A DNA stretch of 35,439 nucleotides from an uncultured Lachnospiraceae bacterium (GTDB lineage: Bacteria; Bacillota; Clostridia; Lachnospirales; Lachnospiraceae). Where the stretch lies: assembly GCA_947628045.1 (NCBI GenBank), contig CANQYP010000007.1, positions 1 through 35,439 on the forward strand, given 5' to 3'. Under the pieces are notes generated by a model. That model saw only the letters and a list, made by a program, of their open reading frames with translations, searched no databases and was not told the origin of the DNA. Positions 7,865 to 32,596 of this stretch are shown here, piece by piece; positions within the stretch are counted from its first letter, which is position 1, and the number at the start of each line of letters is the position of its first letter. The translations under genes and the position numbers were made by a program.

Positions 7865-7870
7865 CTAAGC
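7731..7870 (-). pseudogene. Possible 3' remnant of an unidentified gene
   Basis: On the minus strand the frame ending with TGA at 7731-7733 reads protein-like sequence including NVWAVEFAGYEFEKIVTT and KYQIPGKYKPHINK, with no usable start. It abuts the end of the DUF4276 gene in another frame. I do not recognise the family. It could be the tail of a gene replaced when the neighbouring pair arrived. Confidence 0.3.
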
Positions 7871-8530
7871 AACTATTCTTTTTTCCAGCTCGTTTATAAA
7901 ATGCTGATAGCTCGGAGAATTATTTCCATGCAAACGTAAATATCTGCCTATTCGGTCCGCCCACTCACATTTCGCTTTTCCGATCTCTGTATATGCATTC
8001 CCGGCTTTTTTCCTGAGTTCAGATAATCCCTTCGGATAAACCATATCCGCCAGTACTTCCCAAGTCTCACAGATCGCATCCTGTTCATACTTTTTTATAT
8101 ACTGCATCTTTGCATTTGGATACGCCGTCCTGATTGCCTCCGCATCTCCTAACAGCCATGCCTCCATTTCCTTAATCGCTACACAGAAAGCATAGTCGCA
8201 CAAAACCATATTAGAAATCGCTGTATCTTCCAGTTCCTGCCTGAATTGCTGAATGTCTCTTTTATCGTTATCCAGAACAATAATCAGCGCGGCGTTCGGC
8301 ATCTTTTGCAGAGCTTTGCCGATTCCTCGCATATACCGTGGCAAATTATTCAGCAATTTCCCTGTCTTTTGTTGCATTGCATTTCCTTTCTTCTGCAAAT
8401 GACCGATTCCGGAAAAAGGCTTTACATTCCAGAAAATATCATTTCCCGTATATTGATCTTTCAGTTTGTCCATCACATGGTTCACCAGTATTTCTGTTGA
8501 TCTGTCTTCGATCAGAAATTGAAAATACAT
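7865..8530 (-). CDS. DUF4276 family Toprim-like protein, probable defence nuclease partner
   Basis: A 221-residue protein with the features of DUF4276. The N-terminal FLIEDRSTEI contributes the Toprim-type glutamate, LIIVLDNDKRD near residue 88 the D-x-D motif, KEMEAWLLGD near 130 is a family signature, and the C-terminal NSPSYQHFINEL ends it. Toprim folds coordinate metal for DNA or RNA strand breakage. Its ATG directly abuts the stop codon of the ATPase gene upstream (TAGATG) with GGAGG inside the ATPase's last codons, so the two are translationally coupled. The pairing of an AAA15/21-type ATPase with a Toprim-like partner recalls PARIS, AbiL and OLD-type anti-phage systems. Function is inferred. 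Confidence 0.8.
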   Translation of the reverse strand: MYFQFLIEDRSTEILVNHVMDKLKDQYTGNDIFWNVKPFSGIGHLQKKGNAMQQKTGKLLNNLPRYMRGIGKALQKMPNAALIIVLDNDKRDIQQFRQELEDTAISNMVLCDYAFCVAIKEMEAWLLGDAEAIRTAYPNAKMQYIKKYEQDAICETWEVLADMVYPKGLSELRKKAGNAYTEIGKAKCEWADRIGRYLRLHGNNSPSYQHFINELEKRIVA

Positions 8531-9766
8531 CTATACCTCCATACTTTCGAAATATTTGCTGTACCACATGTCTCCGACAGGTACCCCCTCTTCCGCCAAT
8601 TCCTTTACAAAGTCAAATTCTGAAGCCCTTTTTATTGTAGAATACCCTTCTGCATCCTTCATCAGCACCCAGACGTCATCCGGTCCTAATGCGTTGACAA
8701 AAAACGGGCTGTGTGTTGTAATAAACAGCTGTTTGGAGAACCCACTGCCTGCTTCCCGTTTCATCTCTTCGGCAAGCTCCCCCAGATAATGATGGTACAG
8801 CCCGTTCTCGGGCTCTTCAATAAACACAAGCTGACGCGGATTTTTTTCATGAAGCAATAAATAATAGGCAAAAAGTTTTAATGTCCCATCTGACATTCTC
8901 TGGGAATAAAAAGGTTCCGCAAATCCCTTTTCGTAAAACCGCAGCATCATCTGTCCATTCTCGAATTTTTTAGGCTCAATTTTCTCAATGTTAGGAAGCT
9001 TTGACTGTATTTCTTGCAAAATTTTTTCAAAATCCTTTTTATTTTCACGATACATGTATTGCGCTACATTATTAATGTTGCTTCCAATTCGATCCAAATA
9101 AGGCTGAGGCGCGGCAGTTTGTATGCGCCGCGCTGCATCCGGAGAAAAATAGCAAAGATACCAGCTTTTCAAAAAATCAAGGAATTTCTCAATACGATTA
9201 TACTGTTTCATCGCTCCTATAGTAACAATGCCTAGGCGGCGGAGATCAGACAGCTGTACCTCCTTTTTTTCCCCGATAATACTACCGTCATCATTCTGCC
9301 CTGCTTCATCGTCATTTCCCTCAAAAGCATATCCGTTGCCTTCCTGCAGATACATAAAGCTTCTCGGCCACCCATATTGCCCTACTCGCTGACGAAGTCT
9401 CTCCGACTTTACATAAGGGCGTCCTGTCTTATCCAAGTCAATTTCCAGTTCATACGTAATCGGTCTCGTATTTCTTGATTCCCTATAGTATAATTCAAAA
9501 GAAATCGGTTCCGCCGCACCTTGTGAAATCAGCTTTTCAAAACCGCCGCGGTTATTTGCATCACATGCCGCCTCCACGCCCATCTCGAGACAATCTGCTA
9601 TAAATCCAAACGCATCTGCCAGAGTACTTTTTCCGTTTCCGCTTGGTCCGATAATGGCAATCAAATTTCCCAAAGCTTTTTCCGTCTGTTTTGTTCTCGT
9701 TTTTCCCAATACAATATCTTTCAGTACTCCATAATTCTGAATTTTTATTCCTTCAATCTTTCCCAT
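8531..9766 (-). CDS. AAA_21/COG4637-like ATPase, partner of DUF4276
   Basis: A 411-residue SMC/ABC-like ATPase. It has Walker A GPSGNGKST near residue 42, an ABC-type signature region QRMSDGTLKLFAYYLL near 300, Walker B VFIEEPENGL near 325 and the H-loop ITTHSPFF. A middle region replaces the long coiled coil of SMC proteins. ATPases of this shape commonly act as the sensor or scaffold of two-gene defence systems. The start at 9766 is preferred over an upstream in-frame TTG because GGAGGG lies directly before the ATG. The gene is AT-rich relative to the flanking metabolic genes, a sign of transfer. Confidence 0.87.
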   Translation of the reverse strand: MGKIEGIKIQNYGVLKDIVLGKTRTKQTEKALGNLIAIIGPSGNGKSTLADAFGFIADCLEMGVEAACDANNRGGFEKLISQGAAEPISFELYYRESRNTRPITYELEIDLDKTGRPYVKSERLRQRVGQYGWPRSFMYLQEGNGYAFEGNDDEAGQNDDGSIIGEKKEVQLSDLRRLGIVTIGAMKQYNRIEKFLDFLKSWYLCYFSPDAARRIQTAAPQPYLDRIGSNINNVAQYMYRENKKDFEKILQEIQSKLPNIEKIEPKKFENGQMMLRFYEKGFAEPFYSQRMSDGTLKLFAYYLLLHEKNPRQLVFIEEPENGLYHHYLGELAEEMKREAGSGFSKQLFITTHSPFFVNALGPDDVWVLMKDAEGYSTIKRASEFDFVKELAEEGVPVGDMWYSKYFESMEV

Positions 9767-9839
9767 TTCACCCTCCAGCCACAAATAAGTGTTACAGTTC
9801 TGTAGTGCATCATTTGCGACAAAAATTCCAGATATTTAT

Positions 9840-12535: not shown

Positions 12536-13975
12536 TCAGACCACCTTCGGCGTACCACGCAGCACCTGCGCGCCGAAGGTTTCTTTTTCTCCCAGTTCCC
12601 GATAGGTCCGCATGATCAGGACCGCCGCAATCAGAAACGTCAGGAAATCAGACACCGGCATGGAATACAGCACTCCGTCCAGCCCCCAGAACAGCGGGAG
12701 CAGGAACGCGAATCCCACGCCGAAAACGACCTCACGAACCATCGAAAGCATCGTCGACGCTGCCGCCTTGCCCATCGCCTGAAGGAAGATGAAACACGCC
12801 TTATTGACACAGGCAAATACCACCATGCACAGATAGATGCGGAACGATCTGAGCGCAAAATCGGTGTAATACGCGCTCTCGTTGGCAGCGCCGAAAATAC
12901 CAATCAGCGCGCCCGGAAACGCCTCCACGATCACAAGCGCGACCGCGCCGACCGCCGCCTCCGCGACCAGCAGCCGAGTAAACAGACTCCGCACCCGCGC
13001 CTTCAGACCCGCACCCATATTGTAGCCGGCGATCGGGATACAGCCCGCCGCCATGCCCACAACGATCGAGATCACGATCTGGAAAAATTTCATGACGATC
13101 CCGACTACCGCCATGGGAATCTGCGCGTACTGCGTCTGCCCGAACACCGGATCCTGCGCGCCGTATTTGCGGATCATGTTGTTGATCGCCGCCATCGCGG
13201 CAACCAGAGAGATCTGAGATAGAAAGCTCGTGACGCCGAGCATCAGCGTCCGGCACACAATATTGCGGCTTAAACGGAAATCCGCTCTCGCCGGTTTCGT
13301 CAGTTTCATGTGCGCCAGATACCAGAGCGCCAGCAGCGCCGTCGCCACCTGACCGATCACCGTTGCGACCGCGGCTCCCATCATTCCCTATCTGAACAGA
13401 TAAATGAAGATCGGGTCGAGGATCACATTGATCACAGCGCCGAGCAGGGTGGAGACCATCGCAAATTTCGGCGACCCGTCCGCCCGGATGATCGGATTCA
13501 TCGCCTGTCCGAACATGTAAAAAGGAACCCCGAGCGAGATCCAGAAGAAATACTCCTGCGAGTACCGGAACGTCTCCGCGTTGACCGTCGCGCCGAACAG
13601 CGTGATGATCGGACGCGCGAAGATCAGATAGACCGCGCACAAGAACAGGCTGCCCACGACGACCAGAACGACCGAGTTCCCGACGCTTTTTTTCGCGTTA
13701 CCCGCCTCCCTCCTGCCGAGGCTCAAACTGACGAACGCGCAGCAGCCGTCTCCGATCATGACGGCGATCGCCAGCGCGATCACGGTAAGCGGGAAGACCA
13801 CCGTATTCGCCGCATTGCCGAACGACCCGAGATACGAGGCATTGGCGATAAAGATCTGATCCACAATGTTGTACAACGCCCCGACCAACAGTGAAATGAT
13901 GCAGGGAACCGCGTACCGGCTCATGAGCTTTCCGATGCGCTCACTTCCCAGATAATGATTTGTTTCCGTTTCCAT
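12536..13975 (-). pseudogene. MATE-family efflux transporter interrupted by one in-frame TAG
   Basis: Reading from the ATG at 13975 gives the N-terminal half of a MATE (MepA-like) Na+/H+-drug antiporter with its first membrane helices (YAVPCIISLLVGALYNIVDQ and a GDGCCAFVSLSLGR loop). The frame meets TAG at 13385-13387 and then continues with no shift into the second half (GAAVATVIGQVATALLALWY, CIPIAGYNMGAG). At the stop the context is IYLFR-stop-GMMGAA, where homologues often have a tryptophan, so TGG to TAG is the simplest cause. Total length without the stop would be about 478 codons, normal for MATE. TAG is an ordinary stop elsewhere here (glmM), so recoding is unlikely. The start follows AAAGGAATG. 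Confidence 0.85.
12544..12590 (+). terminator. Rho-independent terminator of the xylanase gene
   Basis: Perfect 9-bp stem CCTTCGGCG (12544-12552) with CGCCGAAGG (12571-12579), followed by TTTCTTTTTCT. It lies inside the 3' end of the convergent MATE gene, so the arms also encode its last residues. Confidence 0.8.
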
Positions 13976-14030
13976 AGTTTCATTCCTTTCCATACAAACG
14001 CCCTCTTTCTTTTATCTCTTTTAATCACAC

Positions 14031-15005: not shown

Positions 15006-17099
15006 TTACCCGGCACTCGGTCTTGCGCTGTACGCAAAATCTTCTTCCAGATCCAGCTCATACTTTTTCAGCAATTCACGGATAAAACAAATGCAGTCAT
15101 ACGCTGAATATCCCGTATTAATATAAAGATTAGTATCCTTCTTCAACTTAACAGGATTTCTAAGCGCTGTTGCATCATATGAAAAAACAGGATTGATCCA
15201 TGATGGGAAGACCTCCTGTGTGCTCGCCATCTGGTCTATGATTCGGCTATCTAAATCGTACAGTTTCCTGGCGACTGACCGAACCATAAGCGCAAAACTG
15301 TCAACATTCACTTTTTCACCGAGCAGTTCGTAATAATTCACATACTTGTGGGTTGCCTTATGCGGATCCGCAACGGTATAAAGCGTATATCGCGGATCCT
15401 TAAACTCTATCTTTGTCTCCGGCTGGTCAATCGGAAACAATTCTTTGATCAGGCTGGCAAGCCGCTCCGCCCTGCTCTCAATCGCCGCGGCGTTCCATAA
15501 ATCCTTGTCTTTGACGTCGCTATATAAAACAACAATATGTGTCGTATCTGCAAGCATCTCTTTCTTTTCCTGGAATGGCTTGTCCCCCAGCTCACTGTTG
15601 TATCCGGTCAATGTAAGATTTCCGAGAGTATGCAGATATCTGTCGCGGACGGTTTCCCAGTCCTCACCGAGCATTTTCTTCCAGGCTGTTGAAAGATTCT
15701 TGTTTTGGGGCATAATGTGCTCAATCGTGAGGTTGTCAGTGATCACATGCTCCTTTCCCTGGTTTTCAATCCTGGTCAGCAAGTACTTACAAAGAGCATT
15801 TTTTCTGTATAGATTACGCTCTTTCAATGCAAGCATGAAATCTGCGTCGCTCGGTATTACATCTTTAGAAGTCAGCTGAAGAAGGAAAGATAAAATGGCG
15901 TCATAATAGTGATCTTTATTCTCACCGCGAATAAAGACACGACTGTAAAGCGTCTTATACAGACCGCGCAATGAATTGGAACCAATCTCGCAAATCAGGC
16001 GGCGCACACTGTAGCTCAACAACAAATTCAGTATTTTCCCTAATTCTCTCTGATCAATCACTCCAGCCTCGAAATCATCAAAAACATGAAATAAGAAAAG
16101 ATAAACCGTAGTCTGCTTCAGCCGTCTCAATCCGGAAAGTGCCATATTGATCTCACTGCTCAGTGCATCGTTGCCGCAACAGAACGTGTGATATTGCTTT
16201 GCATAATGGAGAATTTCACGCAGCATCGACTCGTTCGTATATTGTCCGTCCCGATAGATCTGTTTGAAATCCGCATAGGCGTTGCTCTCTTTCGTAAACC
16301 CGTCCAGCTTCATGTTGAGAAAATCCAGGAAAAAACTCTCCAGCCGATCCTTCGAGAGAAGTTCCTGCGTGATCAGCCAGTAATCCTCGTAAAGCCTTTC
16401 CTGGTCATCATCCGTCATCAGAACATAATTCCTGATCAGATCTGGAAGTCCCAGAGTAATACCCGTAGAGTTGATCCTCTCAAAAATCTCCTGAGCATCA
16501 TCATCCTGATCGAGGCGGATATCGGCACAAATCAGGTTGTCGATTCCGTCATGGATCATCATGACCGTATGATCAGGATCTTCATTCAGAAAAGCACTAA
16601 TCAGCTCCTTAAAGAGCATGTAGTTATGATAAATGACGCCATTCTTACTTTTATCCATGCTGTCAATTTTTCCTGACATCAACAGCCGAAGCTGATCATT
16701 ATCTGTTTTTACCGGTTTGAGTTTCAGCTTGCTTTTCTCGTCGATTCCATACCTATTGAACCTGTCTTCATTGAACAGATATTTTTCCAGAGCGTCTTTT
16801 TCCGACTCATCCTGCGCACAATCCGCCAGCGCTTTCAGAAGAATATAAAGCGTGGTGAACCTCTGCTGTCCGTCAATGATGATAAAATAATCTATATGAT
16901 TTTTTGATTTAAGCGGTGCGTAAACAAATGATCCGCAAAAATGCAGCCTGTCCTTCTGGAAGGACAGAACAATATCTTCAAAGAGTTTTTCGCACTGTTC
17001 ATGAGTCCATGCATAATCGCGCTGAAAAACAGGAATGCAATATTGTTTCTTATTCGGCTGAATATAATCATTCAGCATCCTGCCGCTGTCAATTTTCAT
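15006..17099 (-). CDS. DUF262/DUF1524 (GmrSD-like) modification-dependent nuclease
   Basis: A 697-residue single-chain homologue of GmrS-GmrD. The N-terminal DUF262 domain, a ParB/Srx-like nucleotidase fold, shows IPVFQRDYAWTHEQ near residue 24 and FIIIDGQQRFTTLY near 75, with RINSTGITLGLPDL about 210. The C-terminal DUF1524 domain carries the HNH-type motif LTIEHIMPQNKN near 460 and LGNLTLTGYNSELGDK near 495. A further 100-residue C-terminal module is not recognised. The family cuts glucosylated hydroxymethylcytosine DNA or other phage DNA in an NTP-dependent way. The target here is inferred. It overlaps the small upstream gene by 11 bp. Confidence 0.88.
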   Translation of the reverse strand: MKIDSGRMLNDYIQPNKKQYCIPVFQRDYAWTHEQCEKLFEDIVLSFQKDRLHFCGSFVYAPLKSKNHIDYFIIIDGQQRFTTLYILLKALADCAQDESEKDALEKYLFNEDRFNRYGIDEKSKLKLKPVKTDNDQLRLLMSGKIDSMDKSKNGVIYHNYMLFKELISAFLNEDPDHTVMMIHDGIDNLICADIRLDQDDDAQEIFERINSTGITLGLPDLIRNYVLMTDDDQERLYEDYWLITQELLSKDRLESFFLDFLNMKLDGFTKESNAYADFKQIYRDGQYTNESMLREILHYAKQYHTFCCGNDALSSEINMALSGLRRLKQTTVYLFLFHVFDDFEAGVIDQRELGKILNLLLSYSVRRLICEIGSNSLRGLYKTLYSRVFIRGENKDHYYDAILSFLLQLTSKDVIPSDADFMLALKERNLYRKNALCKYLLTRIENQGKEHVITDNLTIEHIMPQNKNLSTAWKKMLGEDWETVRDRYLHTLGNLTLTGYNSELGDKPFQEKKEMLADTTHIVVLYSDVKDKDLWNAAAIESRAERLASLIKELFPIDQPETKIEFKDPRYTLYTVADPHKATHKYVNYYELLGEKVNVDSFALMVRSVARKLYDLDSRIIDQMASTQEVFPSWINPVFSYDATALRNPVKLKKDTNLYINTGYSAYDCICFIRELLKKYELDLEEDFAYSARPSAG

Positions 17100-17316
17100 T
17101 CGATGCAAACCCCCTGTGATGCGTCTGTGTCATTGTCTGTTCCGATATGGATTCATTTTCATCTTCCCACATCTCCCGGTATTCTTCGATATAAAATTTA
17201 ACACAGTTCGGATATATATATAAATACCTTCTGCAGACTCTTTTGTATAAATTTAATATTTTTTCATCATAGGCAAAATCCAACAAGTGATCAAACAAAT
17301 GCGATCTTTCTTCCAT
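17089..17316 (-). CDS. Small unknown protein coupled to the GmrSD-like nuclease
   Basis: A 75-residue charged, aromatic-rich protein (LFDHLLDFAYDEKI, YKRVCRRYLYIY, EEYREMWEDENE) with no family I recognise. Its stop codon overlaps the nuclease start, so the two are translated together. A 15-codon frame (17316-17363, MEEIKRILKHWGRVV) ends in a TAATG overlap with its own start and could be a leader peptide. It may be an accessory or immunity factor for the nuclease; this is position-based inference only. Confidence 0.6.
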   Translation of the reverse strand: MEERSHLFDHLLDFAYDEKILNLYKRVCRRYLYIYPNCVKFYIEEYREMWEDENESISEQTMTQTHHRGFASNEN

Positions 17317-18317: not shown

Positions 18318-19646
18318 TTTCGCAAATTTAACTTCATAAAAAATAGACATGGTCTATGCCGTTTGGTAGAATTAAGTTACCACACAAAATTTTACTAAAG
18401 GAGGCAAAAACCATGTCTGATAACATTATACAACTGAATGAGGATTTAATAAAGCATGATTTGAAGGATCTTGTCCGCAGCAGCGTGGAAGAGACCCTTA
18501 ACGCCCTGCTTGACAAGGAAGCCGATGAACTGGTCAATGCCCAGAGATATGAACGTTCCGATACCCGCCAGGGCTACCGCTCCGGCCATTATAAGCGAAA
18601 CTTCCAGACCACGGCAGGCGAAGTGGAGCTGAAAGTCCCAAAGCTCAAAGGCGTTCCTTTTGAGACGGCCATCATCGAGCGCTACCGCCGCAGGGAATCC
18701 TCCGTGGAAGAGGCACTGATCGAAATGTACCTTGCCGGTGTCTCTGGCCGCCGCGTAGAGGATATCACGGAAGCCCTATGGGGAACCAGGGTCTCGCCCG
18801 GCACGATCAGCAACCTCAACAAGAAAGCCTATGAACATATCGAGACCTGGCGTACACGCCCGCTCGCCGGGGATTATCCGTATCTCTATGTGGACGGGGT
18901 CTACCTGAAACGCAGCTGGGGCGGTGAGGTCCAGAATGTATCTGTCCTTGTTGCGATCGGTGTCAGCAGCGATGGGTTCCGCGAGATCATCGGTGCAGCA
19001 GAAGGCATGAAAGAAGACCGGGAAAGCTGGCGTTCCTTCTTTGTCTGGCTAAAAGAGCGAGGGCTTACAGGCGTCCGGCTTGTCATCGGGGATAAGAACC
19101 TGGACATGCTGGAAACAGTTGCAGAGATCTTTCCGGATGCCCGGTACCAGAGATGTACAGTCCATTTTTACCGGAACATCTTTTCCGTGACACCAAGGAA
19201 TAAAGTGAAAACGGTCGCGATGATGCTGAAAACGGTACACGCCCAGGAGAACAAGGAAACTGCCAGGGAGAAAGCCTCCCAGATCATCAGGAAACTGCGG
19301 GAGATGAAACTGTCCAGAGCGACCCAGAAAGTGGAGGACGGCATAGAGGAAACGCTCACTTACATGGACTTTCCGACGCAGCACTGGACACGGATCCGGA
19401 CGAACAATACGATCGAGCGTGTGAACCGGGAGATCAAGCGGCGGACCAGGGCCATTGGCGCGTTCCCGGACGGGCAGAGTGCACTGATGCTGGTCTGCGC
19501 ACGGCTGAAGCATGTAGCCGGGACCCAATGGGGCACCCGGAAATACATGAACATGGAGCATCTTGCCAAGCCGGAAGACGGAATGCTGTCCGACTCCCTT
19601 GCAGGTTAACGTCGGCGTCCAAACGGCTGAATTTAATTTTGCGAAA
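18318..19646 (+). mobile_element. IS256-family insertion sequence
   Basis: About 1.33 kb containing a complete transposase gene, bounded by imperfect terminal inverted repeats (18318-18336 and 19628-19646, 17 of 19 matching; core TTTCGCAAA). A second shared block GCCGTTTGG lies just inside each end at different distances. No 8- to 9-bp target duplication is visible and about 100 bp of the host Fic gene are missing, so the insertion was followed by, or made with, a deletion. Confidence 0.75.
18413..19609 (+). CDS. IS256-family transposase
   Basis: A 398-residue DDE transposase of the mutator/IS256 type, apparently full-length. It contains YRSGHYKRNFQTTAGEV near residue 50, YVDGVYLKR with the first acidic residue near 160, GDKNLDMLE with the second near 225, the CTVHFYRN motif, and NTIERVNREIKRRT with the catalytic glutamate near 345. 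The ATG at 18413 follows AAAGGAGG, a strong site; an upstream ATG (18356) lacks one. Nothing suggests inactivation. Confidence 0.95.
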   Translation: MSDNIIQLNEDLIKHDLKDLVRSSVEETLNALLDKEADELVNAQRYERSDTRQGYRSGHYKRNFQTTAGEVELKVPKLKGVPFETAIIERYRRRESSVEEALIEMYLAGVSGRRVEDITEALWGTRVSPGTISNLNKKAYEHIETWRTRPLAGDYPYLYVDGVYLKRSWGGEVQNVSVLVAIGVSSDGFREIIGAAEGMKEDRESWRSFFVWLKERGLTGVRLVIGDKNLDMLETVAEIFPDARYQRCTVHFYRNIFSVTPRNKVKTVAMMLKTVHAQENKETAREKASQIIRKLREMKLSRATQKVEDGIEETLTYMDFPTQHWTRIRTNNTIERVNREIKRRTRAIGAFPDGQSALMLVCARLKHVAGTQWGTRKYMNMEHLAKPEDGMLSDSLAG

Positions 19647-21429: not shown

Positions 21430-22368
21430 CTACCTATTTCCCTCATTATCAAAGTTTTTCCATCTCAATAATAAAACCAAATAAATAAAAGTAATTAAGA
21501 CGCATATGGCAAACAGACTAAGTGATATAATTGGCATGTACTGACTACAATTATTATATATTTTATTCATCAATGCACATAGCAAAGGAAAAAATACTCC
21601 AAGGAACGAAAAAATAATAAAAATAATTAATCCTGACTTCATTCCTTTTGGTTTTCTTATTTTTCTCTTTTTTTCTTCATATTGTGATTTTTCAAATTTT
21701 AATTCTTGTATCCGCATTTCTAATTTTTCAACTTCTCCTTCTTTTTCGTGATACCAAAACGGTGCCGTTTGCGGGATGAAATCCTCTGTATCAAATAATA
21801 GCGAAGAAAGATATGCTGAATTTTTTTCTCTCTTTTTAATCTCAACCAACACTTTTTTACACACTCCATAATCAAATTCATTTATATATTTTTTTGCCAA
21901 TATCACCGGTACTTTATCTGAATTTACACTATTGGCTTGTTCTTCACCTAAACCGAATATTTCTTCGCATATCTTTAAGGCTCTCAACCAATACCTTTCC
22001 ATTTTTGAATAATCAAGCCTTGGTTTTTCTTCAGGCTTATAGACTATATCTATACTTCTACGATCCACTAGCTCGGATACATTATCTCTTACAAAATCAA
22101 GCGCATCATCATCGTCTAATTGTTCAGTTATATTGTCGTATTGTTTCATTTTTATATTAAGCTCATCATTAATTTCTTTGATTTTATCTAAGATATTTTC
22201 TCTATCAGCACTGATGCTTATTAATTTTGCAGCAATAAAGCCACCAATAATTGCTATAATAGTTGCTGAACATCCCGCAATTGAATAAAAGAAACTTGAA
22301 TAATCCAACTCAATAGTCCTCCATACCTCTTTGCGATAGAAAATATTAAACAATTCTATCAACAGCAT
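21430..22368 (-). CDS. Membrane protein with coiled coil, three predicted helices, unknown function
   Basis: A 312-residue, AT-rich gene product. One membrane helix is near residues 24-50 (FFYSIAGCSATIIAIIGGFI). A long charged cytosolic region follows with two coiled-coil stretches (about 50-85 and 210-245), and two closely spaced helices at about 246-270 and 280-305 lead to a short tail. No enzyme motif is visible. It follows the AbrB-domain gene by 24 bp on the same strand, and a terminator-like hairpin closes the pair. The layout, soluble regulator then membrane protein within an island, would fit a toxin or abortive-infection effector, but that is speculation. Confidence 0.7.
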   Translation of the reverse strand: MLLIELFNIFYRKEVWRTIELDYSSFFYSIAGCSATIIAIIGGFIAAKLISISADRENILDKIKEINDELNIKMKQYDNITEQLDDDDALDFVRDNVSELVDRRSIDIVYKPEEKPRLDYSKMERYWLRALKICEEIFGLGEEQANSVNSDKVPVILAKKYINEFDYGVCKKVLVEIKKREKNSAYLSSLLFDTEDFIPQTAPFWYHEKEGEVEKLEMRIQELKFEKSQYEEKKRKIRKPKGMKSGLIIFIIFSFLGVFFPLLCALMNKIYNNCSQYMPIISLSLFAICVLITFIYLVLLLRWKNFDNEGNR

Positions 22369-22392
22369 TAATTTCTTCTTTGTATTTCCACT

Positions 22393-22956
22393 CTATCTTG
22401 CCAGTTCCGCCAACCTTCCAAGCGCAGTCACAAACCATTGAACGTCCTCTTCTCCCATTGGGGACATGCTCCAGTGATTCCAGTACCGCCATTGTGAATA
22501 GATCGCATTGCCTAACGTCTGCAGGTCAATTTGTTCAATGATCCGTTCCAGCACCGCGTTATCATTTAAGGCGTTTAAGCCCGGAAACGCTGTTTCCAAC
22601 GATTTTCCGCAATCCATCTCAAACCCCAGGTCAGCCATTTCCTCTCCCATGAATTCTATCTCTTCAAAGAAGTAAAACGGTATTGTTTTATAATTTATAT
22701 ACATTTGCTGCCACACCAGCGCAAAACGACGAATTCTTTTCTTGTTGGCAAGCGGTATACGTTTTACACCAGACCCTTCCGGGCGGCGAACGGACACTAC
22801 ATCGCCATCAAAACAAAGCGTCACTTCCCGGCTATCCGGGCGAACGCCCATCCGGTCAACCCACGATTTCGGGATAGACAATTTGCAGGTATAGGAATTC
22901 CTGCTTGCATTACCGCCGGCTTTACCAAAGATTATATTTGCATTTCTTTCTTCCAT
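22393..22956 (-). CDS. AbrB/MazE-like domain protein with unknown C-terminal domain
   Basis: A 187-residue protein. The first 60 residues look like a SpoVT-AbrB swapped-hairpin DNA-binding domain (SYTCKLSIPKSWVDRMGV, then REVTLCFDGDVVSVRRPEG). AbrB domains serve as transition regulators or antitoxins. The remaining 125 residues, rich in Trp, Met and acidic residues (QWRYWNHWSMSPMGEED), are not recognised. It has a good promoter and an AAAGGCGG site and is the first gene of a two-gene unit with the membrane protein. It could be the antitoxin or repressor of that unit. Confidence 0.7.
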   Translation of the reverse strand: MEERNANIIFGKAGGNASRNSYTCKLSIPKSWVDRMGVRPDSREVTLCFDGDVVSVRRPEGSGVKRIPLANKKRIRRFALVWQQMYINYKTIPFYFFEEIEFMGEEMADLGFEMDCGKSLETAFPGLNALNDNAVLERIIEQIDLQTLGNAIYSQWRYWNHWSMSPMGEEDVQWFVTALGRLAELAR

Positions 22957-22989
22957 AAACCAAACCGCCTTTCAGCACTTTTCATTTCC

Positions 22990-25032: not shown

Positions 25033-25236
25033 TTACTCATTCTTCTCATCGCATTCCTCAACAACGACTTTATAATGTTTCCGCAGCTCCGAACGTATTT
25101 TGGAAACAAATACATGAAATTGTTGAACATCCTTTAATCCGAGAATTTCAGTGCATTGAACCGCATTTCCAAATGCGATGATTTCATCCGTATCCTCCCG
25201 ATAAATCGTATAATGTTTTATAGCAATTCCTTTCAC
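25033..25236 (-). CDS. Small protein at the end of the McrBC-type operon
   Basis: A 67-residue protein (HYTIYREDTDEIIAFGNAVQ, then LGLKDVQQFHVFVSKIRSEL) resembling short phage-type regulatory proteins with an x-x-T-D-E-I-I-A-x-G pattern; no family is certain. It starts at a GTG overlapping the McrC stop by 4 bp (GTGA), so translation is coupled. The role in the restriction operon is unknown. Confidence 0.6.
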   Translation of the reverse strand: MKGIAIKHYTIYREDTDEIIAFGNAVQCTEILGLKDVQQFHVFVSKIRSELRKHYKVVVEECDEKNE

Positions 25237-26588
25237 GGAAGAATTTGCTGCAGTGCCTCAGACGCATTATCAAGGTCGTTTCCTAAAATTAGTTCATAAT
25301 AATCCAGTGAATCAACCGCCAATGGGAGCGAAGTTATCCCTGTAGCGTCCAGAACTTTTGCATGGCTATTAGATCCCGGAAATACAAATCCACATCGATT
25401 TACATCTGTCAAAAGGACATAAGATAATAACTGATGAGTATCTGATCTTACGCTTCGAGTATTCGGCTTATATTTCGCATCAATAACAGCTACCGGCTTT
25501 CGGCTTTCATTGTCCCGAATTATTATATCAGGAATGCAATAGGGCATTAGGTGGATACCACGCTTAATTTCAGAGATATCTTTAACATTCTTTTGTATAT
25601 ACAATCTTTTTGAATAACGATCTAAGGAGTATTTGTCCGTATTTATCGTCCGCTTCAAAACTATTCGAGCATAAAACTCAAATAGAGATTCCATGTTTAT
25701 CATATATGGAATTGTGAATACGCTTTTGGCTATGGATTGACCATCCTCGCTCTTAAATGCGTAATATTTTTGTCCATAGATACAACGTGCCTGCTGTAAA
25801 AGAGGTTTGTAATACATATAAAGCCCTGACGCATCTGCTCCATTGAAATCACTCGTCTTTATACGAACAGTCTTTACACGGCGGAATGCATTCTGGCAAT
25901 AAGCCATCCGTTTTGACACCTCAGATGTTAGAGGGAATCTTCTCCCTATAATATCTTTACACTTCAATAAGGTCGCTTTGAGAATTCTGTTTTCAATATT
26001 ATCTTCGGTAAAATCAATGTATTTGCAGTAGAACCTGTCACTTCTGCCTTTACAAGTGTTAACGCGTATGTTCTTCTTAATATCAATTTTACCTCGAACT
26101 TTTGAGACATAATTCTCTTCCTGGTGAAACATCGTTTTCTTCAAGCCTTTTTTACAAAGACTATAGCATGACGTAATAAAACTCAGGGCATATAACAGTT
26201 CCCCGTCTTGTTCTGTATCCTGGGATAACTTAATCAGTGGCTGGTCATAGAAAACATGAAACAGAGACCTTCCATCAGCATCCATTTCTGCAATGTAATC
26301 ATCGTATTCATCATCAGTCATCACCGTCTCAAGCATCTGCCACGGGTTCATGCCATATTGTGAAGTTACGACAATAATATGCTCTTTGCCTCCGGATTGA
26401 AGATAGTGACCGTTTTTATCATATAGTCTCCCAACTCCAACATATCCACTGCTCCACAGTTTTCCTTGAAATCTATGTATGCCAAAATTGATCTCTGGTG
26501 CAGAAAGATCTACTTTTGTCCATACCTCATCCTTGCTGTTCAGCACAGACCAGTCATTAACTTGATGGATTATTACATCTCGTGCCAT
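25233..26588 (-). CDS. McrC-like PD-(D/E)xK nuclease subunit
   Basis: The 451-residue nuclease partner of McrB-type motors. The N-terminal half is beta-rich. The middle has FTEDNIENRILKATLLKCKD and FTIPYMINMESLFEFYA, both typical of McrC. The catalytic core is CIPDIIIRDNESRKPVAVID with AKYKP, giving the PD...D-x-K pattern near residues 350-375, then HQLLSYVLL. McrC stimulates GTP hydrolysis by McrB and cleaves DNA. The gene lies 16 bp after the McrB frame with AGGAAAG before the ATG. All catalytic residues seem present. Confidence 0.92.
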   Translation of the reverse strand: MARDVIIHQVNDWSVLNSKDEVWTKVDLSAPEINFGIHRFQGKLWSSGYVGVGRLYDKNGHYLQSGGKEHIIVVTSQYGMNPWQMLETVMTDDEYDDYIAEMDADGRSLFHVFYDQPLIKLSQDTEQDGELLYALSFITSCYSLCKKGLKKTMFHQEENYVSKVRGKIDIKKNIRVNTCKGRSDRFYCKYIDFTEDNIENRILKATLLKCKDIIGRRFPLTSEVSKRMAYCQNAFRRVKTVRIKTSDFNGADASGLYMYYKPLLQQARCIYGQKYYAFKSEDGQSIAKSVFTIPYMINMESLFEFYARIVLKRTINTDKYSLDRYSKRLYIQKNVKDISEIKRGIHLMPYCIPDIIIRDNESRKPVAVIDAKYKPNTRSVRSDTHQLLSYVLLTDVNRCGFVFPGSNSHAKVLDATGITSLPLAVDSLDYYELILGNDLDNASEALQQILP

Positions 26589-26604: not shown

Positions 26605-29547
26605 TTAGTATCCGATTTTGGTGCGTACCTCTTCGATAAAAGTTCCCACATAATCGTTATCAATGCATTTTCCCGACCTTGTCATACTGCCAAATTCTTT
26701 AGCATACAGCATGATATTGTCACTGATAAAGCGGACTCGTTCACCACGGTCGGCAGCGTCCCTGATTTCCGAAGGAGTATGTTCGATAGCTTTCAAGTCC
26801 TCGATGGTATCTAATATTCCATCTTTAACATACTCTCTTAAGATGGGGATAATTTGGAAGACAAAATGTTCAACAAAATCCTCCTCATAACCATCTTTTC
26901 TTTTTCTGAGGAAATAGGTATGCCCAAGACGAACATCACTCTTTTGATACTCATCATTAAAGTAGCTTTCGTTATCAAATACTGCCTGTACCGCATCAAA
27001 TACCAACAGTTCAATGGAATTCTCATCATCGTTTCCAGAAGCATTCTGATAGCAGCTAATGACAACATTCCGATCCGCAGGGCTATCAATGAAAAGAAAC
27101 CGCCTGCGAATGGCATAGTCGATTGAATCAATAGATTTATCAGCAGTATTCATCGTGCCAATAATATATAGATTTTTTCCAAGAACGATATCCTTGGTTC
27201 TCGACACAGGATCAGCAGCCTTGTCCTCGACCTCATAAGGCGTAGATACCTTGCTATCACGGTATTCAAGGCCATAAATCAACTCTCCAAATACCGTAGC
27301 AATATTTGCCCTATTAATTTCATCAATAACGAGATAAAACTTCGGTGGTTCGGTCGGATTGGCTTTTTCAGCAAGTTTGGCAAACTCGGCAATCTTGCCA
27401 AGGATTCTGTTAACACTGTTATACGATGGAAGTCCTCCGTCGGCCTTCACCTCGATACCTCTTATGAAATCCTCATAACCATATGATGGATGAAATTGAA
27501 CCAAATCCCATCCCCCCATAGTCAGCTTTGCAGAAACTGCCGGATTAGAATAATCTTCTTCCGTCATCTTATAAACATCAAGCGCAGAAGAGATTTCCTC
27601 CAGGCTCACAAAGCGTTTTGTTAGGATTTCCGAATCTGGCTCCAACTGTTTAAGTACGAATCTCTTGCTCTCAAAGGTTTTAGATGTACCGGGAGGTCCT
27701 TGGAATACCATCTGACGAACGCCGATGTTTTCCATGATCTGCTGATAATCCTTTAAGTCAGTCATTTTTACCACTCCTTTTATCTCTATGACTTTTTCCA
27801 TACCACTTGTGATGTTATAGGTATCCTCATATGCCTCAACACTAAAAGGTGTAGAGCCTACAACCAAATTCTTAAACTTCTGTTCGTCAACTCTGATTAC
27901 TTCTCCTTGACGCGTCCACAGCGTTCGCAATCGTCTCATTTTTGTACCAAAATAATCAATACGCGCTTTCTCCCGTTCTGTTTGTGAAGCTGCATTAACA
28001 TTCCTAAGTTCATCATGCAAAGAAGAGAGATATTTTATTTCCAGTAAAATCAACTCATCCAAATCCGCATAAGACTCATCGTGACCCTTTATCAGCGATA
28101 TATTCACCTCATATAACTTCAAGTAGTATAACAGAAGCCGATATAAGGAGCCGTATATCTCTGCCGGGTTATTGTCCTTGCAAACATTGTTTGTCGTAAA
28201 TGTATGTAACCTTAATCCATTCAGCGGAAGGTAGGTATCGCTTGGTGATCCATCTGCATATGAAATCTCATATGCAGCAACATCTGACCGATCAGCCCAT
28301 CTTCCCACATTACCCGGACGGGTAGAATAGTATGCATGGGGATTACGCCGATCTTTTCCTTTTACGGCAGTTTCATAATAGTAACTTGGAGCATCCTGTG
28401 CTTTTACCAAATAAGAAGCATATGCCACCGGCACAGTCTTACTCGGTACAGATGCAACCTCTATATTAAATAGGAGGGAATCCGTTGCTATATCGTTTGG
28501 AAACACTCCATTTAATACGACCGCATCTATTACGCTTTCTAATAAGCCTTTATAGTCGGAACAGTGGTTCGGTATAATCTCTCTTTCGTAATAATCAATG
28601 GTATCTTCTAACGAGTAAGGATCAACTCGGTCGCCCGAATTGACCATAACCTTTCGTATGTCTGAAATACGATTCAGCCCGGATACCCCTGTATTCAGCT
28701 TTGAAGAAAGCGCCTGCTCAAAAGAATCAATATTGCCGTGAATAATTCCCATTGAAGAAAGATTGTTCAAAAAAGGGAATACCTGATATACCATTTTCTG
28801 CTTAAACTTGTCAAGCACAAAATATGATGTTCCTGTGCGATCGACCATAAACAACCCATGACCTGGCATATATTTTTCAGCAACATCAGGAACTCCAGGG
28901 GCAGCATTAGACGACAAGAACTCTTTTATACTCTCAAAGATATCCGTAATAATCCTTCCGGCGTTTGCATTGACGGCGTCGTAATATCTCTCAATTATTT
29001 CTCTGTCAGATTTCAATTCAGCAACATAATCAATCCTCCTGCGCAATGCGTAATCTAAATGGCCTAAATGGAAGTCCCCTCATTCCGTAAAAATAAGAGT
29101 GACATTGTCAGGTATACACAATTCCGAGCCATCAGCAAAAGTTACGGACTCATTACGAAATTCCATCGCATAGATCAGATTCCCCAGCAAAACACTTGCA
29201 TCGATTCTCGAAATATCGTCAAAAATCACAGCAAAGCTTTCTTCTGATATTTTTGCTCTATCACACAGTCTTTTTATTCGCTTCTCCACATAGTCTATCG
29301 TCATCGAACCTGTGGCTTTAATGTCGATACCATAAACTATGTCCTCATATGTCATGCTTGGATGAACCTGGATAAATTCGCATCTATCACTGTTTATAAA
29401 TGCCTCAATCTTATCCAAGTCCTCATAAATGTCCCTTGATTGAAGGCTGTCTATATTTAATTGTTCGTGACACAGGTAATATGCGGCTGCTCTTGCAAGA
29501 AATGTTTTTCCTGTAGCAGGATTACCTGTGAACAGTAAGCTCTTCAT
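26605..29547 (-). pseudogene. McrB-like tandem-AAA GTPase, one reading frame split by an in-frame TGA
   Basis: From the ATG at 29547 to the stop at 26605 the frame is continuous for 981 codons except for TGA at 29080-29082. The first 155 codons form an AAA module: Walker A GNPATGKT, VHPSMTYEDIVYGI, a degenerate Walker B AVIFDDISRIDASVLLGNLI. Directly past the TGA the frame continues GDFHLGHLDYALRRRIDYV, the expected end of the same AAA fold. A helical region follows. The second, canonical McrB domain then shows GPPGTSKT, FHPSYGYEDFIRGI, LVIDEINRANIATVFGELI and the GTP-type motif GTMNTADKS with DYAIRRRF. McrB motors form rings and translocate DNA for McrC. No well-placed start exists after the TGA: the nearest is a TTG at 29046 without a ribosome binding site. 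Nonsense mutation, sequencing error and read-through are all possible. Confidence 0.85.
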
Positions 29548-29553
29548 ATAAAA

Positions 29554-30669
29554 TCATTCTCCAGTATTATCTGTGGTCAATATGTTCAAGACCAATCGAG
29601 CCAGGAAATAAGATACCTTCGGCGGCACAGCATTCCCAATCTGCCGACTTATCGATCGTTTATCTCCATAAAAAACGTAACTGTCCGGGAAACTCTGAAT
29701 CCTCGCTGCTTCTCTTGGTGTCAATGTTCTGTCTTCGTCAGGGTGAATGAATCTTCCACCCGCCGGAGTGTCAAATCTTGTAGTTATAGTTGAGGCTTGC
29801 TCATCCCAGCATAACCTACCGTATGAACCACTATGGACAGAATTAATCTGTTCATTAAGAACCGTATAGTTTTCACCGTTCTTAATTTGTTTCATTCTGT
29901 CAACTGCAACCTTTGAATGTTGAGACCGGGTATGATTTGTTATTGTTTTTGCATCACAGGAAAGGTATTTTTCATATTCTGTTTCAGGGACGGGATTTTG
30001 AATAATTCCGTCTGAAGAAGTCACGGGCAAATTACCAATTGCATCTCGTACTGTGACGCTATCAAAATATGTCGGAATTTCCCGCAGGATATCTTCTCTT
30101 GTCTTTTTCCACAACGCCTCAATGTCTGTATCTTCAATAAGCGTACCCAGGATTATCATTCTTTCCCTACGCTGAGGAACCCCAAAGTCAGCAGCATTTA
30201 TTACCCGATGATATATGTGATAAGGCTCGTTTCCTAAAACCTCTGTGTCTTGGAATATCCTCTGAATTTCCTTGAATATTTTTCCGCCTTGCATGGTTGC
30301 TATGCCTTTAACATTCTCCATGATAAACACTTTAGGCATAACTTCTTTTACCACATTAAAATAATGCTTAAAAAGATAGTTCCGCGGATCATCAATGAAG
30401 CCATGCCTGATTCTTGCACCAGCCATAGAAAAACCCTGGCACGGGGGACCTCCAATGATGATGTCAGCATTTACTCCTTCAAAAGTTCCAGAAATATCTA
30501 TATTTTTAATATCATCGATTATCATGTTGACTTCAGGGTGATTAAGCTGATATGTGTTTGCTATGACGGAATCAAATTCCACAGCTTGATTCACATCATA
30601 TCCAGCCTGTATAAACCCAAGTGACAGCCCACCACATCCTGCAAATAAATCAATTACTCTCATCCGCAT
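29554..30669 (-). CDS. DNA (cytosine-5) methyltransferase
   Basis: A 371-residue C5-methyltransferase with all main motifs in order: motif I DLFAGCGGLSLGF, motif IV GGPPCQGFS with the catalytic cysteine, motif VI MENVKG, motif VIII PQRRERMIILG, a target-recognition region at about residues 200-300, and motif X QIGNAVPPKV. The start at 30669 follows GGAGGAATTA. It overlaps the end of the N6-methyltransferase gene by 20 bp, so the two are coupled. It ends 6 bp before the AAA frame. It most likely protects host DNA from the McrBC-like nuclease. The target sequence is unknown. Confidence 0.94.
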   Translation of the reverse strand: MRMRVIDLFAGCGGLSLGFIQAGYDVNQAVEFDSVIANTYQLNHPEVNMIIDDIKNIDISGTFEGVNADIIIGGPPCQGFSMAGARIRHGFIDDPRNYLFKHYFNVVKEVMPKVFIMENVKGIATMQGGKIFKEIQRIFQDTEVLGNEPYHIYHRVINAADFGVPQRRERMIILGTLIEDTDIEALWKKTREDILREIPTYFDSVTVRDAIGNLPVTSSDGIIQNPVPETEYEKYLSCDAKTITNHTRSQHSKVAVDRMKQIKNGENYTVLNEQINSVHSGSYGRLCWDEQASTITTRFDTPAGGRFIHPDEDRTLTPREAARIQSFPDSYVFYGDKRSISRQIGNAVPPKVSYFLARLVLNILTTDNTGE

Positions 30670-32329
30670 TAATTCCTCCGCTTGTTCTATATCTGATAGC
30701 AAATGTCTTTATGTATTCGCTCTCAGATTTGGTTAATCCATATGCGGCATTTATAAAATCATCTATCGCATGGATTTCTTCCAAACACCCACGATGTTTA
30801 TATTCATATTGAGTTTGCTTTGTACCCACATAGACTTTTGTTGCCTCAAGTTTATCTATCAGCAGTGTTGCTAAATTGGTGGCACCGTCAATGTTTGGCA
30901 TTGTAGGCATCCTGAAATCATTAAGTGCCTTGCTAACATGCCAACAATCCGAAACGCAAATCCAATACCACCAAAAAAGCGATGAGTTTATGACGCAATA
31001 GCAAAAATCGGCTTCTTGGGCTGTTGCAAAACTAAACACTTTGTATTCCGGATCATCAACCTTTGTTCGATATGCCTTCATCCAAAACGCCTCTCGGCGA
31101 TTCAAATACACCGATTGACGCCCATGTCTTGAAACGCTATAAATGGATGTAGTCGTAATAGGATTGGATACTTTTTCATATATATCCGCATCCATTTGAG
31201 TTCCAAGTTTAGGGATAAAATCATCACACTGATGATGGTTCTTTATAACCTGCAGATTTTGAAAAAGGTGCTCTCTTTCATCTTTATACCAATATTGATA
31301 GTTACCAGTATAAAGAGTTACTGGCACTCGCTTGTCCTTGCCAATCAAAATACATAGTTTCTGATGTACAGATTCAAACAAGCAATCAGGTCTATCAGCA
31401 AAACTCAAAATATACTGTTCTGGAACAAGTACCTCCAATTCTTCTCGAAGCTGTTTCATTCGCGGTGTCGAAACATATGATAATGGAATTATAAATCCCA
31501 ACGTACCATTCTTCTCTAACCTTTCAGCTGCATTTATAAGAACATTAGCATAAATGTTTCCATATTTTTTCGTCGGAGAAAGTCCGCTTTTTGAATCTTC
31601 TACATAGGGAGGATTTCCAACTATAATATGGAATTTAACCTCTGTTTGTAATTTTTCTTGTACAAAATCGTATGTAGTAAAACACCGATTCATCATATTG
31701 CCAAGTCCACGGCAGAACTTAGCACCGCATAGTTCTACTACACACAACAACAATCTCATTTCTGTAATGATGACTGAGTCAAGATTTACATCGTTTCCAT
31801 ATATTGTGGAAACCATATTTTTGACATCCGTATCCGTCACCATTTTCTTGTTCTGCTTAAATAACTTCAGTTTCATTTCCAATGCAGTTAGTAGATATTC
31901 TCCCGCACCACAGGTTGGGTCAAAGACTGTCCTTGTAACACAGAATGAGCGATACGGGATATCAGCCAAATCCATATCCGTAATATTCTCATCTTTGAGT
32001 TTTCCGAATGATGACTTTATGCTATTCGTCAGAATAAACCTGACGACATCGTTTGGAGTGTAATAAACCCCTTTGCTCTTTCGGATGCTTTCTTTTTCGT
32101 TTATTTTAGAAAGCATCTCCTGAATCTGACCATATGTATATACGCTATCTTTTCCGCAACCTGTGTTAAAATCAAAGTCTTCGATTCTTGCGATGGTTTT
32201 CAATTCAGCACAAATATCAGCTACATCTTTAGTAGCATAACGGCTAACTATATACGAATAAACAAGCCGCATGGCATTGATTATTAAATCATCCGCTCCA
32301 TTGGGCTTGACACCATCAATCCTACTCAT
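30650..32329 (-). CDS. N6-adenine DNA methyltransferase (Eco57I/TaqI-like)
   Basis: A 559-residue gamma-type methyltransferase. SKGVYYTPNDVVRFIL near residue 90 and FDPTCGAGEYLL near 140 (motif I) bind SAM. IIVGNPPYVED near 235 is the catalytic NPPY motif, and GTLGFIIPLSYVST follows. The C-terminal 250 residues likely recognise the target. There is no fused nuclease. The start at 32329 is chosen over 32341 because AAGGA is better spaced. It is the second large gene of the operon, behind the XRE regulator. Whether it methylates the same site as the C5 enzyme on the other strand (LlaJI/BsuMI-type double protection) is inference. Confidence 0.9.
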   Translation of the reverse strand: MSRIDGVKPNGADDLIINAMRLVYSYIVSRYATKDVADICAELKTIARIEDFDFNTGCGKDSVYTYGQIQEMLSKINEKESIRKSKGVYYTPNDVVRFILTNSIKSSFGKLKDENITDMDLADIPYRSFCVTRTVFDPTCGAGEYLLTALEMKLKLFKQNKKMVTDTDVKNMVSTIYGNDVNLDSVIITEMRLLLCVVELCGAKFCRGLGNMMNRCFTTYDFVQEKLQTEVKFHIIVGNPPYVEDSKSGLSPTKKYGNIYANVLINAAERLEKNGTLGFIIPLSYVSTPRMKQLREELEVLVPEQYILSFADRPDCLFESVHQKLCILIGKDKRVPVTLYTGNYQYWYKDEREHLFQNLQVIKNHHQCDDFIPKLGTQMDADIYEKVSNPITTTSIYSVSRHGRQSVYLNRREAFWMKAYRTKVDDPEYKVFSFATAQEADFCYCVINSSLFWWYWICVSDCWHVSKALNDFRMPTMPNIDGATNLATLLIDKLEATKVYVGTKQTQYEYKHRGCLEEIHAIDDFINAAYGLTKSESEYIKTFAIRYRTSGGINADESN

Positions 32330-32353
32330 AGTTGGTGGCATCCTTTCTAATAT

Positions 32354-32596
32354 TCAATCGTTCGATGTCTCTTCTTTGACATTTCCTTCTTCAGCAGCCG
32401 GAATAAACTCCATAATATCAGCCACGTCGCACTTTAACTCATTGCAAATTTTAACGAGAACTTCTGTAGTGACATTTTCGCCCTTCGTCAGCTTTGCAAG
32501 CGAGGATGAACTAATTCCGGCGTTCTTCCGAAGATCAGACTTCTTCATTCCCTTATCAATTAACAGTTTCCAAAGTTTGTTATAGCTCATTCTCAT
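32354..32596 (-). CDS. XRE-family regulator of the restriction operon
   Basis: An 80-residue Cro/C1-type helix-turn-helix protein (LWKLLIDKGMKKSDLRKNAG, then SSSSLAKLTKGENVTTEVLV) with a short acidic tail. In size and position it resembles the controller (C) proteins that time restriction versus methylation. AAGGAG ten bases before the ATG overlaps the stop of a 56-codon gene. The palindrome over the operon promoter is a candidate binding site. Confidence 0.9.
   Translation of the reverse strand: MRMSYNKLWKLLIDKGMKKSDLRKNAGISSSSLAKLTKGENVTTEVLVKICNELKCDVADIMEFIPAAEEGNVKEETSND

Follow-up and report, generated by a model that had tools for sequence, protein, structure and literature searches.

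Two McrB-type AAA modules are joined in a single motor protein of about 980 residues, which is found uninterrupted in all 12 full-length relatives that were identified and is interrupted by one in-frame TGA in an uncultured Lachnospiraceae bacterium (assembly GCA_947628045.1, contig CANQYP010000007.1). The window, i.e. the whole stretch of 35,439 nucleotides that was analysed, contains this gene amid genes for two DNA methyltransferases, a small regulator and an McrC-type nuclease subunit. Our preferred reading, to which we assign a probability of roughly 60%, is that the gene encodes the motor of a LlaJI-like restriction-modification cassette, that the TGA truncates this motor, so that restriction is off here, and that the stop is very recent. 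The features concerned are the following.

32354-32596, minus strand: Cro/C1-type HTH regulator, 80 amino acids, first gene of the cassette (Pfam HTH_26, 8.4e-21)
30650-32341, minus strand: N6-adenine DNA methyltransferase, 563 amino acids, open (Pfam N6_Mtase, 1.4e-11, and Eco57I, 1.8e-11; NPPY at 243)
29554-30702, minus strand: C5-cytosine DNA methyltransferase, 382 amino acids, open (Pfam DNA_methylase, 7.6e-74; GPPCQGF and ENV motifs)
26605-29547, minus strand: tandem-AAA McrB-type motor gene, interrupted once, 981 codons including the final stop
28750-29547, minus strand: module 1 of the motor, McrB-type AAA, approximately residues 1-266, cut by the TGA (hhalign, HMMER, Foldseek, motifs)
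29080-29082, minus strand: the in-frame TGA, codon 156, with a cysteine at the same column in relatives
27748-28749, minus strand: family-specific middle region, approximately residues 267-600, candidate target-recognition part (no Pfam match)
26605-27747, minus strand: module 2, canonical McrB AAA, approximately residues 600-980 (motifs, NCBIfam and PDB profile matches)
25233-26588, minus strand: McrC-type nuclease subunit, 451 amino acids, open (Pfam McrBC PF10117, 2e-27; PD...DAK motif at 353)

Reading frame and domain organization of the motor

The motor gene runs from 29547 to 26605 on the minus strand as a single frame of 155 sense codons, the TGA (29082-29080), 824 sense codons and a final TAA. 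With 979 sense codons and a sole internal stop, this frame is far from what chance would produce. An earlier note on this DNA had described one frame with a single stop, and this description holds, with the strand, which had been left out, now added; the plus-strand reading of 26605-29547 contains many stops and was discarded. As that note had also stated, the Walker A and Walker B motifs of a first AAA module (GNPATGKT at residue 8 and VIFDDISR at residue 107) precede the TGA, and a second, canonical McrB module lies downstream in frame. Directly after the TGA the frame reads GDFHLGHLDYALRRR, with GDFHLGH followed by LDYALRRR, which starts at the eighth codon. Both pieces of the gene are matched by Pfam AAA_5 (1e-8 and 2.2e-10), and the TGA falls where the strand preceding the sensor-1/NxxD loop of module 1 ends.

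The fold of module 1 is continuous across the stop. When a profile of residues 1-290 is compared with module 2 by hhalign, the two modules align over 264 columns (99.5%, E 2.5e-22, with module 1 as 3-270), and the alignment crosses the stop column and extends to the G-H motif of the lid. A profile of module 1 plus the middle region retrieves E. coli McrB from the PDB (entry 6hz4, 4.7e-16, HMMER), again spanning the stop. For structure prediction, residues 1-290 of the intact relative L012 were modelled instead of the read-through protein of the window, using an alignment of 12 sequences. The best 20 Foldseek matches in the PDB of the resulting model (pLDDT 82.7, pTM 0.77) are all McrB chains, with a top E of 1.3e-13 and TM values of 0.67/0.68. 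Because both alignments cross the stop and the model is confident, the segment after the TGA can be said, as modelled, to provide module 1 with its lid, its final strand and its arginine region, which agrees with the earlier proposal that it completes the first AAA module.

Module 1 combines conserved and degenerate motifs. In all 12 relatives TGKT, RRR and the PGHG of the lid are kept, while Walker B has DD for DE and the signature asparagine is absent. The residue preceding the invariant cysteine of the TGA column is glutamate in ten relatives, alanine in L008 and aspartate in L040, and never asparagine; opposite the McrB asparagine the alignments place either a glutamate (HMMER) or a gap (hhalign), and in both of them the cysteine lies opposite the next threonine. 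For Thermococcus gammatolerans McrB, the accessible parts of PMC7680126 describe the Walker B glutamate and the signature asparagine as positioning the catalytic water and as needed for hydrolysis, and two neighbouring arginines as acting in trans and being required for hexamers. Since Walker A and RRR are kept and both water-placing residues are lost, module 1 is predicted from its sequence to bind nucleotide without hydrolysing it and still to serve its neighbour. In L008 (4703-7732) an alanine/aspartate-rich repeat is inserted in module 1 after approximately residue 74.

Module 2 contains GPPGTSKT (617), LVIDEINR (739), GTMNTAD (797), DYAIRRR (810) and RLGH, and the motifs GPPGTSKT, DEINR, GTMNTAD and DYA[IV]RRR are present in the window and in all 12 relatives. 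The family profile matches PDB entries 6ut3 and 6hz4 over module 2 with E values of about 1e-27. The NCBIfam McrB model matches module 2 at 1.9e-25, but with 89.5 of the 637 bits of its curated cut-off, and the NCBIfam match of the McrC gene is far under its cut-off as well. The middle region matches no Pfam domain, and a profile search against the PDB gave three hits, to one unrelated molecule with E about 0.74, and hence no significant fold match. The model of the full-length motor is poor (pLDDT 52.2, pTM 0.33), with low confidence in the middle region, and was left out of the structure matching, for which the module-1 model was used in its place.

Relatives of the motor and of the cassette

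A scan of genome contigs with the piece behind the stop reveals nine loci (L003-L011), in each of which one open frame of 977-1021 residues covers the query. Three further full-length relatives are L012, a contig from a viral collection that is 94% identical to the window and has an open frame, and two loci in members of the bacterial family (L039 in G356 and L040 in G516). An internal stop occurs in none of the 12, which are 47-94% identical to the window, and the column of the TGA is a cysteine in every one of them. The partial locus L042, which was counted apart, is open across 293 codons and has the cysteine too, so that the TGA is absent from all 13 relative loci. L041 (G642), identical in contig to L003, and its search hit L037 were dropped before counting; L005 and L006 are near-identical, and the 12 full-length loci are thus fewer than 12 independent ones. 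The claim of the earlier note that the two pieces form a single protein, in which two McrB-type AAA modules follow one another and the first has DD in place of DE, is therefore borne out by the 12 unsplit relatives, the profile alignment across the stop and the module-1 model. Neither of the outcomes that would have contradicted the note was observed: the homologues do not encode two proteins with a conserved stop, and in the model of the relative the segment behind the TGA position does complete the first AAA fold.

The tandem form is rare in the sampled genomes. At 1e-50 the piece behind the stop is found in one of 60 genomes, which is the window's own, and among phage and plasmid records, with 18 and 278 matches respectively, none covers 80% of the query. 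In scans with the profile of module 1 plus the middle region, three candidates per genome were scored among the matches listed. At 1e-15, 10 of 392 genomes of the order, own genome included, are among the matches listed, and the loci of the nine others among them are tandem only in G356. At 1e-30 the matches listed comprise 3 of 397 genomes of the bacterial family and 1 of 398 genomes of the phylum sample, the own genome included in both cases. Profile scans of viral contigs return L012 and L042 only. Both contigs come from a viral collection (IMG/VR; 50 kb and 12 kb) and include the cassette, with 97.8% identity where their motor sequences overlap; they represent either phage-borne copies or misfiled host DNA.

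A tree was built from eight module-1 and eight module-2 sequences, taken from 8 of the 12 relatives, and from nine single-module McrB sequences. In it, module 1 and module 2 each make up a group of their own, both supported at 100/100. This separation fits one old fusion or duplication that has been conserved since. The exact origin of module 1 is unsure because of the very long module-1 branch, two long single rows and the odd composition of module 1 in L008. Elsewhere, in the distant genome G351 (L075 4952-8823), an McrB gene (469 codons), an McrC-like gene (500) and a second, AAA-only McrB gene (330) lie in a row; no match to the window's methyltransferases is present within 15 kb.

The cassette has the order HTH regulator, N6 methyltransferase and C5 methyltransferase upstream of the motor, and McrC downstream. 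The N6 methyltransferase is present in all 12 full-length loci, the C5 methyltransferase in 11 (not found near L011) and McrC also in 11 (no match following the motor in the L008 stretch), so that the four core genes occur together in 10 of the 12; the HTH gene was found by tblastn in six. PADLOC gives no match for the McrC gene and for the motor only weak REase_II matches (1.3e-9).

Nature of the internal TGA

The stop itself is an ordinary nonsense codon. Four other genes of the cassette end in TGA, by which an alternative genetic code was rejected in favour of the standard one. Under the preferred reading, the TGA would end the motor after residue 155 and no full motor would be made. The earlier note suggested that the stop may silence a nuclease; it is the motor subunit that is broken, whereas the nuclease subunit, McrC, is intact.

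Relaxed selection on the motor gene is not clearly evident. Relative to L012, dN/dS is 0.049 before the stop and 0.041 after it; relative to L009, L010 and L007 the values are 0.041, 0.082 and 0.068 before, and 0.061, 0.057 and 0.060 after the stop. (The whole-gene dN/dS relative to L003 and L004 was left out, as dS is saturated.) On the window's own branch dN/dS amounts to 0.045 and 0.052 with two outgroups (bootstrap upper bounds of 0.065 and 0.077), and on the branch of the nearest relative, L012, to 0.039 and 0.032, which is slightly lower, with overlapping bootstrap ranges. Such values imply that the stop is very recent, or that it is an error, or that the product is still made.

An origin of the TGA in sequencing, assembly or strain mixture, with the gene intact in the organism, is the principal competitor, although we consider it clearly the less probable explanation. 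The contig stems from a genome in 258 contigs that is 91% complete and 2.7% contaminated, and a pattern of the stop region has no match in the viral contigs, the sole collection scanned with it, which thus provide no second copy of the strain's sequence. The absence of clear relaxation agrees with an error as well. In addition, the contig has another interrupted gene: a MATE-type transporter gene (12539-14011, minus strand) is divided into 207 and 283 codons by a single in-frame TAG (13390-13388) between two MatE domains, whereas 39 of the genome's 41 other MatE matches fall in uninterrupted frames 448-604 codons long, and in another genome both halves weakly match one frame of 454 codons. However, each of the two genes is interrupted by one in-frame stop, TGA in one and TAG in the other, with no frameshift, which is the appearance expected of recent nonsense mutations, and the remaining genes of the cassette are open. 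A pair of single-codon splits within 35 kb is as compatible with local decay as with a contig of poor quality. In a scan of 400 kb of the own genome for same-frame neighbours, long antisense frames swamp the split-gene signal.

The contig shows several other features. At 21433-22971 (minus strand), two open stretches of 192 and 320 codons in the same frame are separated by a TAG (22395-22393); neither has a Pfam match, the gene at 21433-22368 has no match in plasmids, and the pair could be two genes or one broken gene. A candidate two-gene defence pair is located at 7865-9784 (minus strand; PADLOC HEC-01, ATPase 9.6e-170 and partner 2.1e-99), and a Mutator-family transposase at 18356-19609. 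A GmrSD-type restriction protein is encoded at 15006-17108 (minus strand; best PADLOC models Orf5 and HEC-06), with which the contig looks like a defence island.

It is improbable that re-initiation behind the stop has turned the gene into a source of two functional products, a mini-AAA protein and a shortened McrB. In its favour, module 2 is whole, dN/dS behind the stop is as low as before it, and in G351 McrC is flanked by two distinct McrB-type genes. However, the break falls inside the fold of module 1, so that this module's arginine helix and lid end up on the second piece, the split is absent from every relative in the tandem-motor family, and each of the two G351 genes encodes a complete module with canonical motifs. 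An AGGAGG follows shortly after the stop at a position where most relatives use other arginine codons. The in-frame starts that come first in the second piece are three TTG codons (168, 178 and 211) and an ATG (codon 227), and the AGGAGG precedes the second TTG by 18 bases, too distant for the usual spacing.

The most interesting reading of the TGA is selenocysteine, since a cysteine column is where selenocysteine would sit: all 13 relative loci have cysteine there, a classic place for Cys/Sec exchange, and dN/dS is low on both sides of the stop. Among 47 genomes of the genus, the own genome being one of them, four have a selB above the cut-off. Yet the own genome shows neither selB above the curated cut-off (2 of 14 controls above it) nor tRNA-Sec above the gathering score (5 of 14 controls above it; 150 of 256 first-look candidates scored). 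Its best tRNA-Sec match reaches 44 of 47 bits but is called a tRNA-Ser, and the genes at the five matches are identified by ARAGORN as Ser, Ser, Gly, Lys and Ser tRNAs. Nor is a special hairpin behind the UGA indicated: the stretch of 60 bases from the UGA is equalled or surpassed in folding by 197 of 200 shuffles, and Rfam has no match within the window. Together with the lack of the stop in all 13 relatives, these results make it very unlikely that the UGA is read as selenocysteine or, by another type of read-through, serves as a regulated switch; functional read-through, one of the options in the earlier note, is thus without support. For selenocysteine the negative is strong but not final, because in a genome that is 91% complete the absence of selB and tRNA-Sec is no proof.

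Comparison with known systems and proposed mechanism

The cassette most resembles LlaJI of Lactococcus, in which, according to the available text of PMC1459862, two methyltransferase genes lie beside genes for the McrB-like R1 and the McrC-like R2, the latter with a putative PD...D/ExK centre. Two methyltransferase genes likewise adjoin McrB-like and McrC-like genes in the window, where the McrC protein has its PD...DAK. R1.LlaJI is described there as a unique N-terminal part followed by a single nucleotide-binding domain at the C-terminus (PMC1459862), whereas the motor of the window has an extra, degenerate AAA module at its N-terminus. A similar LlaJI-like operon is described for C. cellulovorans in the accessible part of PMC11779793. 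In LlaJI-like proteins as far as presented in PMC7680126, a DNA-binding N-terminal domain, B3 in H. pylori, precedes a single AAA module; here the N-terminus is AAA module 1 itself. The methyltransferases differ as well, with one N6-type and one C5-type enzyme in the cassette of the window. Both methyltransferases of LlaJI are of the C5 type.

Like McrBC of E. coli and T. gammatolerans, the motor has Walker motifs, MNTAD and RRR in module 2, the same fold in module 1, and an McrC-type partner. Unlike these methyl-specific systems, which in the available portions of PMC7680126 and PMC1459862 have no associated methyltransferase and one AAA module per chain, it has N6 and C5 methyltransferase genes upstream and two modules per chain, and thus does not conform to a type IV McrBC system. 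An McrB-type GTPase with an McrC is also shared with CoCoNuT and other McrBC branches, and a census reports, in its accessible text, that NxD and NxxD branches often lie beside DNA methyltransferases (PMC11090510). On its MNTAD signature, module 2 is NxxD and not NxD, in contrast to CoCoNuT, and whereas CoCoNuT has coiled-coil or helicase partners, Pfam shows no helicase among the cassette genes. In the Foldseek search with module 1, BsuMI YdiS-YdjA (PDB 9a5m, an integrative model), which we take to be a single-module McrB/McrC-like pair of a type II system, ranks 23rd. A tandem McrB architecture is unusual: no description of an McrB chain with two McrB modules was found in the open-licence literature, including the available parts of PMC11090510.

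By analogy with LlaJI, the target of the intact system is probably unmethylated DNA. The two methyltransferases would mark the host's copies of an asymmetric site, and the motor would bind unmarked sites through the candidate middle region. Module 2 would hydrolyse nucleotide, GTP by analogy to McrB, and move the DNA, module 1 would serve as a permanently attached partner in the ring that supplies arginines to its neighbour without hydrolysing nucleotide, and the McrC-type nuclease would cut. This tandem mechanism derives from the motifs and from analogy with single-module McrB. Without a full motor, restriction would be off in the organism of the window, with the methyltransferase and McrC genes still open.

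The accessible text of PMC7680126 presents McrB as the only AAA+ protein that prefers GTP, with a ring that is intrinsically asymmetric and sites that fire in sequence. A tentative, rather doubtful extension is that three tandem chains form a pseudo-hexamer in which the non-hydrolysing module 1 alternates with the active module 2 and lends it arginines, so that the asymmetry of the ring is hard-wired and McrC finds only three competent sites. In such a three-chain ring, the conserved cysteine beside the lost sensor asparagine would be part of the frozen site. The second McrB of G351 groups next to module 2 in the tree (99/98), which suggests that mixed rings may predate the fusion.

The stop codon carries little weight beyond this strain. 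It shows either that restriction was lost via the motor gene or that the contig contains an error, and it would lead automatic annotation to list a spurious mini-AAA gene at the split motor. The tandem architecture has the wider meaning: in a naturally occurring chain that pairs a live McrB module with a frozen one, the succession of live and dead sites would be set by the gene itself, and the model of an asymmetric, sequentially firing McrB ring would become testable by ordinary biochemistry.
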